A stretch of DNA of 17,245 nucleotides, taken from Burkholderiales bacterium. GTDB lineage: Bacteria > Pseudomonadota > Gammaproteobacteria > Burkholderiales > Casimicrobiaceae. The position numbers and the translations under genes were made by a program. Position 1 is the stretch's first letter; each line of letters opens with the position of its first letter. The notes below the pieces were generated by a model. It was not told the origin of the DNA and searched no databases. It saw nothing but the letters and a program-made list of their open reading frames with translations. Positions 2,472 through 16,099 of this stretch are shown here, piece by piece. Location: positions 1-17,245 of the forward strand of contig JAITMH010000012.1 of assembly GCA_031277445.1 (NCBI GenBank), read 5' to 3'.

Positions 2472-2709
2472 AATCAGGAATCAGGAATCAGGTATCAGAT
2501 CGCAGCCCGGATAAGCAAAGCGTCATCCGGGGATCGTTTTACCTCACGCGGAGGCGCGGAGAGCGCGGAGAAGAACAAACCCTCTCCCCTCGCGGGAGAG
2601 GGTGGCCGAAGGCCGGGAGAGGGGGCTGGATTCTGCGGCTTCGCGCAGAATGACGACGGGTTTTTCTCCGCGCTCTCCGCGCCTCCGCGTGAGACGCTTT
2701 TCTGATCCC
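2472..2709. repeat. Composite repeat block between the Smr gene and ispB
   Basis: A mosaic of short modules fills the gap. First come tandem copies related to AATCAGGAATCAGG (2472-2498), then a CCCGGAT...ATCCGGG hairpin (2506-2531). A 30-bp perfect inverted repeat follows (arms 2543-2572 and 2664-2693, starting CTCACGCGGAGGCGCGG). Between the arms sit a CCCTCTCCC/GGGAGAGGG palindrome (2580-2602) and an ATTCTGCG/CGCAGAAT palindrome (2630-2651). A reversed GGGATCAGAAAAG closes the block. Reading frames through it are only translations of the repeats. The same modules recur elsewhere in this window. Confidence 0.85.
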
Positions 2710-2712
2710 TGC

Positions 2713-3483
2713 CTATTTCCCCCGCAGCAAAACAAGCACCGCGCCACCGCCGCCGGAATGGTGCGCCGCCTCGCAATACGCCAGCACATCGCCCCAGGAC
2801 GCCAGCCAGCGCCGCACCCTGCCTTTCAGCACCGGTATTTTTCCCGGCGATGTCAGCCCCTTGCCATGAATGATTCGCACGCAACGCAGCCCGTGCGAAC
2901 GCGCCTCGATCAGAAAATCGACCAGCGCATCGTGCGCTTCGTCAACCACCATCCCATGCAAGTCCAACTCACTTTGAATCGCCCATTGCCCGCGCCGCAA
3001 CTTGCGCAAAATATCGGGCGACAAGCCGACGCGCAAAAACGTCTGATCGTCTTCCATCTCCTGCCCGATGTCCCACATCGTTGGCGATGACGACTCGCCG
3101 TACTTGGCAAGCGCCAGCACTTCGGTTTCATCGCGCAATCGCTGTTTCGGCACCGGCGCCGGCCGCGGCGTCTTAACGACGACCCGCCGCGATGGTGGCA
3201 ACGGTATCACTTCTTCGTCGCGCATTTGGCGCTGAAAATCAACATCGCGCTCACGCTTTGCCCCCTTTCCAAAGGGGGTGCCGCCGAAGGCGGCGGGGGT
3301 TTGCTGGGGTGTCGCCGGAGGTGCGCCGCGCTTTGCTCCCCTCTCCCCCTTTGAAAAGGGGGCTTTGGCACCGCGCCCCTGCGCGAGATGTTGCTTTTCT
3401 GATACCTGATTCCTAGCCTCTGATCCCTGTTGTTTCCGCTGCCACAGCGTTTTCAAATCAGACAGCCGCGCACGGGAAGACAT
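2713..3483 (-). CDS. Smr-domain protein (putative endonuclease) with in-frame repeat insertion
   Basis: The C-terminal half is a classical Smr domain, about residues 170-254, with 'LDLHG' at 173-177 and 'HGKG' at 206-209. This domain is related to the MutS2 C-terminus and is linked to DNA or RNA nicking. Stand-alone Smr proteins of this kind often sit beside trxB, and here the trxB stop is only six bases upstream, so the two are probably co-transcribed. The protein has 256 residues, longer than the roughly 190-220 I expect. The extra length is residues about 19-76, which translate repeat modules (see 3258-3430) between a normal N-terminus 'MSSRARLSDLKTLWQ' and a normal linker 'VDFQRQMRDEEV'. 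The GGAG lies directly against the ATG with no spacer, so initiation may depend on coupling to trxB. Substrate and cellular role are unknown. Confidence 0.85.
   Translation of the reverse strand: MSSRARLSDLKTLWQRKQQGSEARNQVSEKQHLAQGRGAKAPFSKGERGAKRGAPPATPQQTPAAFGGTPFGKGAKRERDVDFQRQMRDEEVIPLPPSRRVVVKTPRPAPVPKQRLRDETEVLALAKYGESSSPTMWDIGQEMEDDQTFLRVGLSPDILRKLRRGQWAIQSELDLHGMVVDEAHDALVDFLIEARSHGLRCVRIIHGKGLTSPGKIPVLKGRVRRWLASWGDVLAYCEAAHHSGGGGAVLVLLRGK
3258..3430. repeat. Repeat modules inserted inside the Smr-domain gene
   Basis: The block carries CCCCCTTT-CC-AAAGGGGG (3261-3278), GCCGCC-GAA-GGCGGC (3280-3294), CCCCCTTT-GA-AAAGGGGG (3345-3362), and a GGGATCAG...GGAATCAGGTATCAG string on the minus strand (3398-3430). 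The same kinds of modules occur in intergenic gaps of this window. Here they are read through in frame, adding roughly 58 residues of low-complexity linker. The outer boundaries are approximate. Confidence 0.75.
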
Positions 3484-3489
3484 CTCCGG

Positions 3490-4443
3490 TTAACGCAACT
3501 GATCAAGATACGCCTTGGCGTCAAGCGCCGCCATGCAGCCCGTCGCCGCCGACGTCACCGCCTGCCGATAAACCGAATCGGCAACATCACCGGCTGCGAA
3601 CACCCCCGCCACCGAAGTCGCCGTTGCATTGCCGCTGCTGCCGCTCTTTACCTGAAGATAGCCATCATTCATCGCCAGTTGACCGGCGAAGAACTCCGTG
3701 TTCGGCGCATGCCCGATCGCAATAAAAACACCTTGCGCCGTCACGTCCTGCGTTGCGCCGCTTTTAACATTCTTCAGACGCGCACCGGTCACGCCGGAGT
3801 CGTCGCCCAACACTTCATCGAGCACATGATCCCAGACGACGCGAATGTTGCCGCCGTCCTTCGTCTTAGCCAGCAACTGATCGGCAAGCATCGCTTCCGC
3901 CCGCAAACTGTCGCGGCGGTGCACCAGCGTCACCGACCGCGCAATATTGGACAAATAAAGCGCCTCCTCGACAGCGGTATTGCCACCGCCAATCACCAGC
4001 ACATCCTGATTCTTGTAGAAAAAACCGTCGCAAGTCGCGCATGCCGATACGCCGCGCCCCTTGAACGCCTCCTCCGACGGCAGCCCCAGATAACGCGCCT
4101 GAGCGCCGGTAGCGATAATCAGCGCATCACAAGTATATTCGCCACTGTCGCCGGTCAATCGCAACGGGCGCGACTGCAAATCGACCGTATGAATGTGGTC
4201 GAACACCATTGCCGTCTCGAAACGCTCCGCGTGACGCTGAAACCGCTCCATCAGCGCCGGCCCCTGTACACCGTCAACGTCGGCAGGCCAGTTGTCCACC
4301 TCCGTCGTCGTCATCAATTGCCCGCCCTGCGCAAAACCGGTGATCAGCGTCGGCTTCAGATTGGCGCGTGCTGCGTAAATAGCGGCGGTATAACCGGCCG
4401 GACCGGAACCCAGAATGATCAAACGAAAATGCTGTGCTGCCAT
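3490..4443 (-). CDS. trxB: Thioredoxin reductase (NADPH)
   Basis: A cytosolic FAD flavoenzyme passing electrons from NADPH to thioredoxin. The 317 residues match the low-molecular-weight bacterial type. FAD-binding GSGPAG is at 12-17, the redox-active CATC at 135-138, and NADPH-binding GGGNTA at 152-157. The NADP-phosphate-binding HRRD motif is at 175-178, and the C-terminal FAD motif VFAAGDV at 281-287. A strong GGAGG Shine-Dalgarno sequence lies four bases before the ATG. It is followed six bases later by the Smr-domain gene. The 5' side (4444-4883) contains a repeat block and then the terminator of the ribosomal-protein operon, so trxB should have its own promoter between about 4444 and 4564, though I could not pick one convincingly. 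Confidence 0.97.
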
Positions 4444-4564
4444 AAAACCTCCGAAAAAATGAAAACCACAACGCGCCGAGCGCTATGCCAACGCGGCATC
4501 GGCCAAACAATACGAATGTATCAGAACATCGGGTTTCATAATAATTTTTAAATCGCAACACCGC

Positions 4565-4808
4565 GATCAGGGATCAGAGGTCAGGAATCAGGCATCAGAA
4601 CATCGTCATTCCCGTGGAGCCTGCCGCCGCTTGCGGGGGCAGGCTCTTCCCTCGCAAGCGGGGGAAGGGCTTTGAGTTCTTCTTCGCGGCTTCGCGCCTT
4701 CGCGTGAGACGGTTTTTATGGATTCTGCGTCCTGCGACTACGCGCAGGATGACACGCGCAGAATGACAGCTATTTTTTTCGTGCCTTTCGTGTTTTTCGT
4801 GGTTAAAG
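4565..4808. repeat. Composite repeat block between rplS and trxB
   Basis: The gap 4444-4883 holds no convincing gene. From 4565 it contains a run of GATCAGGGATCAG-type units (to about 4599), then GCCTGCC...GGCAGGC and TTCCCTCGC...GGGGGAAGGG palindromic pieces. A CTTCGCGCCTTCGCGTGAGAC arm (about 4690-4710) follows, then ATTCTGCG (4722-4729) paired with CGCAGAAT (4757-4764). It closes with TTCGTG...TTCGTGTTTTTCGTGGTTAA (about 4778-4807). These are the same modules as at 2472-2709, 12377-12538 and 15849-16010 in a different order. Frames through it give repeat-type peptides (for example NHEKHERHEK) and are not called as genes. Confidence 0.85.
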
Positions 4809-15479: not shown

Positions 15480-15874
15480 AAGGAACCGCGTGGGCTTTGG
15501 TCAGCGTTGCGCTGGTATCGGCGGCGCAACTGTTGATGAAGTGGGGGATGACGCAACTGCCGCCGGTATCTGCTGTTCTGTCAATGGCGGAGTCGGCGGT
15601 TTGGTACACGCATCCCATGGCGCTGTTGAGCGTTACCGTCGGCGTTGTCTTTTATATGTTGTCGATGCTGTGCTGGTTGAAAGTACTGCATGCGTTGCCG
15701 CTTGGCCGCGCTTACCCTTTGTTAAGCCTCAGCTATGTGCTGGTCGCCGTGATGGCCGCCGTCTTGCCATGCTTCAGCGAGCCGCTCACCCTGCTCAAAA
15801 TCGCCGGAATCACCATGGTGTTGATCGGCGTTTGGTTTATCAACACCGATCAGAGATCAGGTATCAGGAAATAG
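15476..15874 (+). CDS. arnF: Undecaprenyl-phosphate-L-Ara4N flippase subunit ArnF
   Basis: Second subunit of the flippase, 132 residues with four hydrophobic segments. 'VSAAQLLMKWGM' (14-25), 'LPLGRAYPLLSLSYVLV' (74-90) and the final 'IAGITMVLIGVWFI' are typical of ArnE/ArnF. The ATG overlaps the arnE stop (ATGA). It is the last gene of the operon. The C-terminal residues TDQRSGIRK and the TAG stop are read from a GATCAGAGATCAGG-type repeat that begins here, so the original C-terminus has probably been replaced by a few residues; the core is intact. Confidence 0.93.
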   Translation: MKGTAWALVSVALVSAAQLLMKWGMTQLPPVSAVLSMAESAVWYTHPMALLSVTVGVVFYMLSMLCWLKVLHALPLGRAYPLLSLSYVLVAVMAAVLPCFSEPLTLLKIAGITMVLIGVWFINTDQRSGIRK

Positions 15875-16010
15875 GAATCAGAAAAGCGTCTCACGCGAAG
15901 GTGCGAAGAAAAAAGGCGTCATTGTGAGCGCAGCGAAGCAATCCAGCCCCCTCTCCCGCGAAGGGAGACGGTTTGTTCTTCTCCGCGATCTCCGCGCCTC
16001 CGCGTGAGAC
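15849..16010. repeat. Composite repeat block between arnF and the activase gene
   Basis: GATCAGAGATCAGGTATCAGG units (15849-15880) lead into an inverted pair, GTCTCACGCG (15888-15897) and CGCGTGAGAC (16001-16010), whose arms continue with imperfect matches. Between them lie a CATTGTGAGCGCAGCGAAGC piece and a CCCTCTCCC-CGCGAA-GGGAGA palindrome. The junction CAGAAAAGCGTCTCACGCG (15879-15897) is identical to the one at 2686-2704 in opposite orientation. Confidence 0.85.
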
Positions 16011-16014
16011 AAAA

Positions 16015-16035
16015 GGGCGGGTTTGAAACCCGCCC
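16015..16035. terminator. Palindrome between convergent genes, possible two-way terminator
   Basis: GGGCGGGTTT-G-AAACCCGCCC is a perfect 10-bp palindrome in the gap between the convergent arnF and activase genes. T-runs are absent on both sides, so it is a weak intrinsic terminator at best; it may also be one more dispersed repeat. Confidence 0.45.
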
Positions 16036-16068
16036 CTACATCTTTGCCTAAATCATGTTTCTGGTTTC

Positions 16069-16099
16069 CCGGACTGCGCCGCTTCGCGGCTTGTCCAGG
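16069..16099 (-). repeat. CGTAG-type hairpin at the activase gene 3' end
   Basis: On the minus strand, right after the TAG stop, CCTGGAC-AA-GCCGC-GAA-GCGGC-GCA-GTCCGGG folds into a stable hairpin. It is related to the unit at the trmD stop (5463-5510) and could protect or end the transcript. Confidence 0.6.

Follow-up and report, generated by a model that had tools for sequence, protein, structure and literature searches.

The stretch of DNA analysed here (the window; 17,245 nucleotides) comes from a Burkholderiales bacterium of the family Casimicrobiaceae and is contig C101 of a draft assembly of 1,337,145 bases (211 contigs, 73.3% complete). It carries ordinary genes for a polyprenyl synthetase, an Smr protein, a TrxB-like oxidoreductase, and ribosomal protein L19; our own reading of the translations adds a trmD-rimM region and an arn-like cluster. 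The gaps between these genes, and one site within the Smr gene, hold short repeat modules, lettered A to K. Modules D to J are hairpins, and A, B, C, and K mostly are not. The modules are probably the terminal arms of at least four kinds of one-gene mobile element, which may be copied by nuclease-driven, homing-like repair. Modules B, C, and K would bound a GxxExxY gene, whose product has a predicted PD-(D/E)XK fold; hairpins D, G, and H would bound a DUF559 gene (Vsr-like); hairpins E, F, and I, of the GTCATT... type, would bound a small GIY-YIG gene; and module A would bound a gene for a four-helix-bundle protein.

A first-pass annotation of the window had described a shared set of modules in four intergenic composites, inside one gene, and as single units. 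The repeats were found at these places: positions 2537–2602 pair with 15949–16014 (66 nucleotides, 92% complementary), 2543–2576 with 2660–2693 (34 nucleotides, 97%), and 12377–12399 with 12516–12538 (23 nucleotides, 100%). A regular-expression census detected module motifs in all four composites and within the Smr gene (3260–3410). Single units were recovered at 6351–6371 and 16069–16078, whereas the third, at 5463–5510, is a hairpin that fits no module pattern. A genome-wide search, which the same annotation had proposed, returned motifs far above chance. The 16-base pattern CACGAAARNCACGAAA matched 205 times in the assembly, against 0 for the same pattern read backwards, and composite 1 gave at least 88 assembly matches at E ≤ 0.001, with 40 of 306 first-look candidates scored. 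On 20 contigs picked by number only, and hence unselected, the census counted 223 motif matches in 140,288 bases (approximately one per 630 bp), where one module can yield more than one match. Motif D is largely identical when reversed, so the reversed-sequence control is void for it; with D left out, there were 171 matches and 5 in the reversed sequence. Rfam at its gathering score matched nothing in the window but one tRNA.

The features below were located by the census unless stated otherwise; r marks those also found by the repeat search, and the strand is given where one was assigned. Composite 1 reads A, J, B, D, E, inverted B, inverted A. At its outer left end is a 7-nucleotide tandem arm, ATCAGGN, of the four-helix-bundle type (module A, 2473–2499, +, r), an arm kind also present at a TIGR02436 gene (locus L292). 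Hairpin J, CCCGGATAAGC...CATCCGG (2506–2531), precedes the left CGCGGAGRN tandem arm of the GxxExxY type (module B, 2543–2576, +, r), whose kind recurs at a GxxExxY gene of the same genome (L137). The DUF559-type hairpin D, CCCTCTCCCC...GGGAGAGGG (2580–2624), also seen at DUF559 loci of the genus, and the GIY-YIG-type hairpin E, CTGGATTCTGCGGCTTCGCGCAGAATGACG (2626–2655, −; compare L247), are followed by the right B arm (2660–2693, −), which was located as the 97% inverted partner of the left one, and by an outer right remnant of A, CTGATCCCTG (2702–2711, −, by eye). Composite 4 reads A, B, F, D, inverted B, hairpins, inverted A. It consists of an A arm (15849–15883, +, extent by eye), a left B arm (15890–15910, +), the GIY-YIG-type hairpin F, GCGTCATTGTGAGCGCAGCGAAGCAATCCAG (15917–15947, +; also at L239, L250, and L252), module D (15948–15970), and a right B arm (15973–16010, −, r). 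Beyond these lie a hairpin GGGCGGGTTTGAAACCCGCCCCTAC (16015–16040, by eye) and a J-like hairpin CCGGACTGCGCCGCTTCGCGGCTTGTCCAGG (16069–16103, extent by eye), and the composite seems to extend to an inward-facing outer remnant of A, CTGATCCCTGAT, recognised by eye at 16107–16118 (−). No partner gene was found for the hairpins at 2506–2531, 16015–16040, 16069–16103, and 5463–5510. Module J, alone among the modules, presumably resembles the repetitive extragenic palindrome (REP) of E. coli.

Composite 2 begins with an A arm (4566–4599, +), followed by the start of module I, CGTCATTCCCG, which is of the GIY-YIG type and dRS3-like (4604–4620, +; also at L238), and a DUF559-like hairpin, CTTCCCTCGCAAGCGGGGGAAGGGC (4646–4670, by eye), with relatives at genus and viral DUF559 loci. 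A B arm of the CGCGAAG flavour (4681–4710, −, r), E hairpins ending in CGCGCAGAATGACAG (4719–4769, −, extent by eye), and a GxxExxY-type arm of module C, CACGAAARN (4776–4807, −, r), complete it. Composite 3 consists of a left C arm of the GxxExxY type, TTAACCACGAAAAACACGAAAGTCACGAAAAAA (12377–12409, +, r; the same kind is present at L133 and L134), and, both from the repeat search alone, a degenerate A, ATCAGGAACCAGGAGTCAT (12448–12466, +), and the right C arm (12516–12538, −), a 100% inverted partner over 23 nucleotides. A single DUF559-type hairpin G, CCCCATCCCCACCCTGACCCTCCCCTTGAAGGGGAGGGA (6337–6372), occupies the trmD-rimM gap and was identified by site comparison and L235 as well as by the census. 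The linker of the Smr protein contains a DUF559-type module H, GCCCCCTTTCCAAAGGGGGTGCCGCCGAAGGCGGCGGGGGTTTG (3260–3303, +; also at L227 and L232), a D/H remnant that is its inverted partner (3338–3363, −), and an A arm, CTGATACCTGATTCCTAGCCTCTGATCCCTG (3399–3429, −, r). Inspected by eye, this linker is lengthened in frame by modules in genomes G000, G004, and G007, and has none in G001, G002, G005, and G010. A probable protease gene (L082, 1280–1400) carries in-frame G and D modules, likewise by eye. In G002 (L119, C5:12400–15400, compared with window positions 1468–4443), the segment from Smr to trxB runs in the opposite direction with respect to the polyprenyl synthetase gene, and the breakpoints coincide with the positions of composites 1 and 2 in the window.

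Within the composites, gene-less arms are nested, and the nesting has a preferred order. In the window and contigs C1–C20, C86, and C128, hairpin modules within 60 bp of the 122 tandem arms number 64 on the inner side and 23 on the outer, and module A lies outside B 14 times, against three times for the opposite order. The exact conservation of junctions noticed in the first-pass annotation was borne out: the B-to-D junction GAAGAACAAACCCTCTCCC is exact in 4 of 8 B-D neighbours, and the A-to-E or A-to-I junction ATCAGAACTCCGTCATTC in 3 of 7. The neighbours are thus not random. Because some junctions recur exactly, composites appear also to move or duplicate as units.

The partner genes were found by comparing orthologous intergenic sites among congeners. 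The arnA-arnD gap is 13 bp in G002 and 63 bp in G006, with no module. It is 175 bp in G001, where it holds a D hairpin, CCCTCTCCC, 184 bp in the window, with paired CACGAAA arms, and 439 bp in G003, where the CACGAAA element is tandemly duplicated, arms included, along with the tail of arnA (L084/L113). In G007, the gap measures 522 bp, and its insert is a GxxExxY gene (TIGR04256, 137 bits; PF13366, 132 bits) between inverted CGCGAAG arms. At trmD-rimM, module G is present in the window, G003, and G010, and an H-like module (by eye) in G007; the gaps in G002, G004, and G006 are just 19–35 bp. In Azospirillum lipoferum 4B, a GIY-YIG gene with GTCATCCCCGCGAAGGCGGGGATCC arms lies between sufB and sufC, and four relatives have no GIY-YIG gene there; the gap is a short spacer in three of them and contains a D-like hairpin in B510. 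Since site occupancy differs among congeners, the modules have moved recently on that scale.

Across the 11 genomes of the genus, PF13366 matched six genes, distributed over four genomes. Each of them is flanked by inverted arms belonging to the window's B, C, or K kinds, compared with 1 of 15 displaced control positions; the flavours are CACGAAA (L133 and L134), CGCGGAG (L137), CGCGAAG (L135), and CGCAAAG (L136 and L138). A scan of species genomes found at least 580 relatives, from which the best 80 were kept. These form 78 groups without a shared 40-mer, and their record titles mention Verrucomicrobia, Planctomycetota, cyanobacteria, Acidobacteria, Chloroflexi, Bacteroidetes, Desulfobacteraceae, and others. 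Loci with short flanks were dropped before counting (7 of 80 in the arm test, 4 of 80 in the arm-type test). The PF13366/TIGR04256 gene was flanked by inverted 8–9-nucleotide tandem arms at 64 of the 73 loci with both flanks, whereas displaced controls gave 1 of 175 at 1.2–2.8 kb and 3 of 199 at 0.4–1.0 kb. A typical arm resembles TCACGCRRAGRCGCRRAGRCGCRRAG, with a flavour that varies between loci. As to vehicles, GxxExxY genes were found in none of 50,697 phage records and in 8 of 72,556 plasmid records.

The motif residues D, E, and K of the PD-(D/E)XK fold are invariant in 36 aligned GxxExxY sequences. No solved structure was found for this protein by sequence. A predicted model (mean predicted local distance difference test score 95.5) was used in a fold search of the PDB, and the top chains were of the PD-(D/E)XK type only, with SSO0001 first and lambda exonuclease among them. 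We take SSO0001, the nearest solved fold, to be a Cas4-like archaeal protein. In the part of one paper available, a GxxExxY call stands where another tool saw cas4 (PMC8934634).

DUF559 genes (PF04480; 12 matches in 5 of 11 genus genomes) have inverted arms at 9 of 12 loci, compared with 0 of 26 displaced controls. Hairpin D flanks L224, L225, L226, and L229, and hairpin H flanks L227, L230, and L232; a related hairpin stands at L234, and hairpin G at a DUF559 remnant (L235). By eye, the H-type proteins seem to form a subgroup of their own, separate from the D-type proteins. On viral contigs, 65 DUF559 loci were found and the best 17 taken, of which two were dropped for short flanks; arms were present at 8 of the remaining 15, versus 1 of 28 controls. 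Inverted D, G, or H hairpins around a PF04480 gene recur in both sets. By sequence, the solved structure for DUF559 is 3hrl. On two Deinococcus plasmids, a DUF559 gene flanked by CCTCCCCCGCAAGGGGGGAGG-like arms occupies differing positions within the hpa gene cluster. E. coli ycjD (L393, between sapF and fabI), which is annotated as DUF559, has D-like hairpins downstream only. We tried ycjD as an empty-site test and set it aside: a place covering at least 80% of its region was found in 3362 of 5426 genomes, and in the two opened genomes without ycjD an efflux operon takes this place, so the test yielded no clean empty site. This operon agrees with the accessible part of a published account (PMC12817139).

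GIY-YIG domains gave 18 matches distributed over all 11 genus genomes. UvrC-type genes, which served as a control, had arms at 0 of 11 loci, whereas 4 of 5 small GIY-YIG genes (L237, L238, L239, and L247) lie between inverted GTCATT-type hairpins, with 0 of 15 displaced controls. The two fragments in the window's own genome are cut by contig edges and have module F on the visible side (L250 and L252). On viral contigs, inverted arms flank 17 of 19 small genes (11 groups of relatives; one further locus of 20 was dropped for short flanks), compared with 0 of 51 controls, and a GTCAT motif occurs on both flanks in 12 of 19. A GIY-YIG gene of N. gonorrhoeae (L384) lies between dRS3-type repeats with cores of the ATTCCC(N8)GGGAAT type. 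A meningococcal genome has about 700 dRS3 copies, according to the part of the paper available (PMC3898611), and this single case is weak because dRS3 is so numerous; the window's module I shows only GTCATTCCCG of the dRS3 core. PLSDB lists two gonococcal records of chromosome size among its plasmids.

The four-helix-bundle genes were searched with the TIGR02436 profile; PF05635 had matched 0 of 11 genus genomes, but it matched no control genome either. A phylum sample of 299 genomes gave TIGR02436 matches in 49; inverted arms, mostly of 7-nucleotide tandem units, flank 21 of the 30 loci taken (control, 0 of 57). In the family, the profile matched in 12 of 64 genomes, with arms at 12 of 15 loci. 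In total, arms were present at 33 of 44 loci, one of 45 having been dropped for short flanks. At L292, a member of the family, the gene stands between inverted 7-nucleotide arms of the window's own ATCAGGN/GTCAGAG kind, ATCCAGGTATCAGAGGTCAG...ATCAG. The long arms at L285, L286, L287, L290, and L294, all in one genus of the family, are built of TAGGACGACG units with hairpins between, unlike plain 7-nucleotide arms.

The type of arm changes with the protein family. A period of 8–9 nucleotides was found in 40 of 66 GxxExxY arms of the best-80 set and in 6 of 6 of the genus, and a period of 7 in 27 of 33 four-helix arms. Stems of at least 6 bp are common at DUF559 loci (7/9 and 8/8) and GIY-YIG loci (2/4 and 13/17), and rare at GxxExxY (1/66 and 2/6) and four-helix (4/33) loci. 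Among 12 plasmid loci picked by hand from 73 listed matches (78 records matched), 7 reached an arm score of 14, the Planktothrix locus with exactly 14.0.

Arms of these kinds thus belong to GxxExxY, DUF559, GIY-YIG, and four-helix-bundle genes, an assignment that we regard as practically certain, and it is very probable that the modules of the window derive from such elements. The window had been thought to display one active family of non-autonomous elements. The modules do look like non-autonomous remnants of mobile elements, combined in many ways, with some kept junctions and differing occupancy; they are not one family, however, but the arms of four kinds of element. Nuclease families account for three of the four partner proteins, and an element of this size has no room for a second gene. 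We suppose that the encoded protein would recognise its own arms and cut at or near an arm or hairpin, and that the break would be repaired from another copy. Elements and gene-less arm pairs would thereby be copied to new sites, often beside or inside existing modules, in a process resembling homing or the dispersal of REPs by their associated transposases. Both the nesting and the match of arm to protein agree with such a process. For this nuclease-driven, homing-like copying, the balance of probability is roughly even.

Alternatively, ordinary hairpin and tandem repeats could serve small nuclease genes as landing sites without being their source. The preference for the inner side and the conserved junctions agree with such passive repeats, and neisserial dRS3 repeats are phage integration targets in the available part of one paper (PMC3898611). 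However, the right arm of a GxxExxY locus is the best match, among all right arms, of its own left arm in 46 of 53 loci, and arms change with the protein (Mantel r 0.41, 0 of 2000 permutations). Because arms of the same locus match best and vary with the protein, arms and gene fit a unit rather than a landing site, and we consider this explanation unlikely.

The inverted ends, the one-gene size (a median of 462 bp from arm to arm for GxxExxY), and the gene-less derivatives recall classical miniature inverted-repeat transposable elements (MITEs), whose arms would be the terminal inverted repeats of undetected DDE insertion sequences, with the small genes as passengers. Terminal inverted repeats shared with a gene-bearing element are indeed present, though the gene encodes no DDE transposase. 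No target-site duplication was detected in 52 GxxExxY loci (mean 1.83 versus 2.34 for shuffled pairs; one locus with at least 6 bp), and therefore repair-based copying fits better than a DDE transposase. Moreover, the same protein family lies between such arms across phyla, and arm type follows protein family. MITEs are accordingly quite improbable.

It is very improbable that the arms act at the RNA level, pairing in the transcript so that RNase III cuts the cassette out, as in the intervening sequences of 23S rRNA. In those sequences, terminal inverted repeats enclose the gene for the S23 four-helix-bundle protein, and RNase III carries out the excision, as stated in the available portion of one report (PMC4990558), but the modules of the window are intergenic or in frame within the Smr linker, where excision is unneeded.

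The search for a REP-associated (RAYT) or IS200-like transposase suggested in the first-pass annotation established no such link. Pfam Y1_Tnp had two matches in the assembly, both of the IS200 type: an interrupted IS200 TnpA gene with an in-frame stop (139.7 bits with the IS200 model and 29.6 with the RAYT model, cut-off 80) and a contig-edge fragment fitting only the IS200 model (76.3 bits). No RAYT was found in this 73%-complete assembly, the one genome covered by the Y1 search, and the ends of the IS200 copy showed no window module by eye. Although the modules are palindromic, intergenic, composite, and high in copy number, as are the REPs of bacterial interspersed mosaic elements (BIMEs) mobilised by a REP-associated Y1 (HUH) transposase, it is scarcely credible that they are such REPs, given IS200-type matches only in this incomplete assembly, an IS200 copy without modules at its ends, mostly stemless tandem arms, and a different partner gene for every class.

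Several observations weigh against elements of four kinds copied by nuclease-driven repair. Arms were absent by our tests from 9 of 73 GxxExxY loci, 3 of 12 DUF559 loci of the genus (L228, L231, and L233), 1 of 5 small GIY-YIG loci of the genus, 11 of 44 four-helix loci, and 5 of 12 plasmid loci (N. gonorrhoeae DUF559, E. coli, A. brasilense, Photobacterium, and Picosynechococcus), and 26 of 66 GxxExxY arms fell below the periodicity threshold. For modules J and GGGCGGGTTT, no partner gene was found. The genes themselves are unevenly distributed: 7 of 11 genus genomes, some incomplete, have no GxxExxY gene and 6 of 11, some also incomplete, no DUF559 gene, while the window's own assembly contains two GxxExxY genes, two contig-edge GIY-YIG fragments, and no match to DUF559 or TIGR02436. 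TIGR02436 matched nothing in the genus, so module A is there a relic or arrived without its gene, and the window's own A sequence was met at a TIGR02436 gene only at L292. The correlation between protein and arm is confounded by descent (r 0.22 among distant proteins), and the fold match of GxxExxY is weak (best E 1.4e-3, above 0.001; TM about 0.45). Beside L133 and L134, the gene-less C (CACGAAA) pairs retain short sequences that resemble the two ends of the gene-bearing element and may be internal deletions of it, but this evidence is modest because the likeness partly overlaps the arms themselves. At the Azospirillum and Shinella sites, no precise boundary was found and exact insertion ends were not obtained because the flanks diverge too much near the insertion. 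Movement itself was not seen, and target-site duplications were not found. Finally, one mechanism for all four kinds is uncertain because the four-helix-bundle protein is no known nuclease.

If elements of this kind are real, intergenic repeat families of distant bacteria, so far described piecemeal, would have a common origin, and the many genes whose only name is GxxExxY protein, DUF559, GIY-YIG nuclease family protein, or four helix bundle protein would acquire a likely biology. In-frame repeat peptides within ordinary genes would also be explained. Each protein is predicted to bind its own arms or to cut them. A large share of the intergenic mosaic repeats found in unrelated phyla could as well as not be the work of minimal selfish elements, so far undescribed. 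Each would consist of a single small nuclease gene (GxxExxY, DUF559, or GIY-YIG) or four-helix-bundle gene flanked by the arms that its product recognises, and would spread these arms and gene-less derivatives by cut-and-repair with no need of a transposase, with the neisserial dRS3 arrays and E. coli ycjD as members or relics. As to a role in defence, PADLOC matched none of three proteins. At 7414–8193 (+), the window also contains a ParE-type toxin gene (PF05016) and, just ahead of it, a small gene; the two are apparently a toxin-antitoxin pair.

In the open-licence literature, we found no account that pairs these arms with these genes; the available passages of papers naming GxxExxY or PF13366 place the gene beside a reverse transcriptase, list it in a table for an algal virus, or describe an expanded family in algae. 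The combination of a single gene with dispersed repeats is itself already known from RAYT-REP systems and from rRNA intervening sequences with their four-helix protein. In RAYT-REPIN/BIME systems, one gene adjoins its own repeats, and gene-less repeats are dispersed and combined in intergenic DNA. The enzyme there is a Y1 HUH transposase, whereas the proteins here are of the PD-(D/E)XK, Vsr-like, GIY-YIG, or four-helix kind, with tandem arms and hosts in many phyla. Free-standing homing endonuclease genes consist of a single small nuclease of the GIY-YIG, PD-(D/E)XK, or Vsr-like fold; the elements described here differ in their inverted arms and many gene-less derivatives. The 23S intervening sequences are similar in having a four-helix-bundle gene between inverted repeats (428 nucleotides), and they are called a selfish element in the available portion of the report (PMC4990558), but 7-nucleotide tandem arms and dispersed gene-less arm copies distinguish the present elements. 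The neisserial dRS3 repeats and their intergenic mosaics (NIMEs) are similar in that the start of module I resembles ATTCCC(N8)GGGAAT; the part of the paper available names no source gene (PMC3898611), whereas here a GIY-YIG partner is present and other module classes join in. Rickettsia palindromic elements also place palindromic modules in frame within genes, as in the Smr linker; this likeness concerns in-frame insertion alone, and no partner gene is named for them in the pages available (PMC10969869). The TAACTGA repeats of Beggiatoaceae, likened here by their description in the accessible part of one paper, form intergenic arrays of 7-nucleotide units that also occur in distant lineages (PMC4679880).

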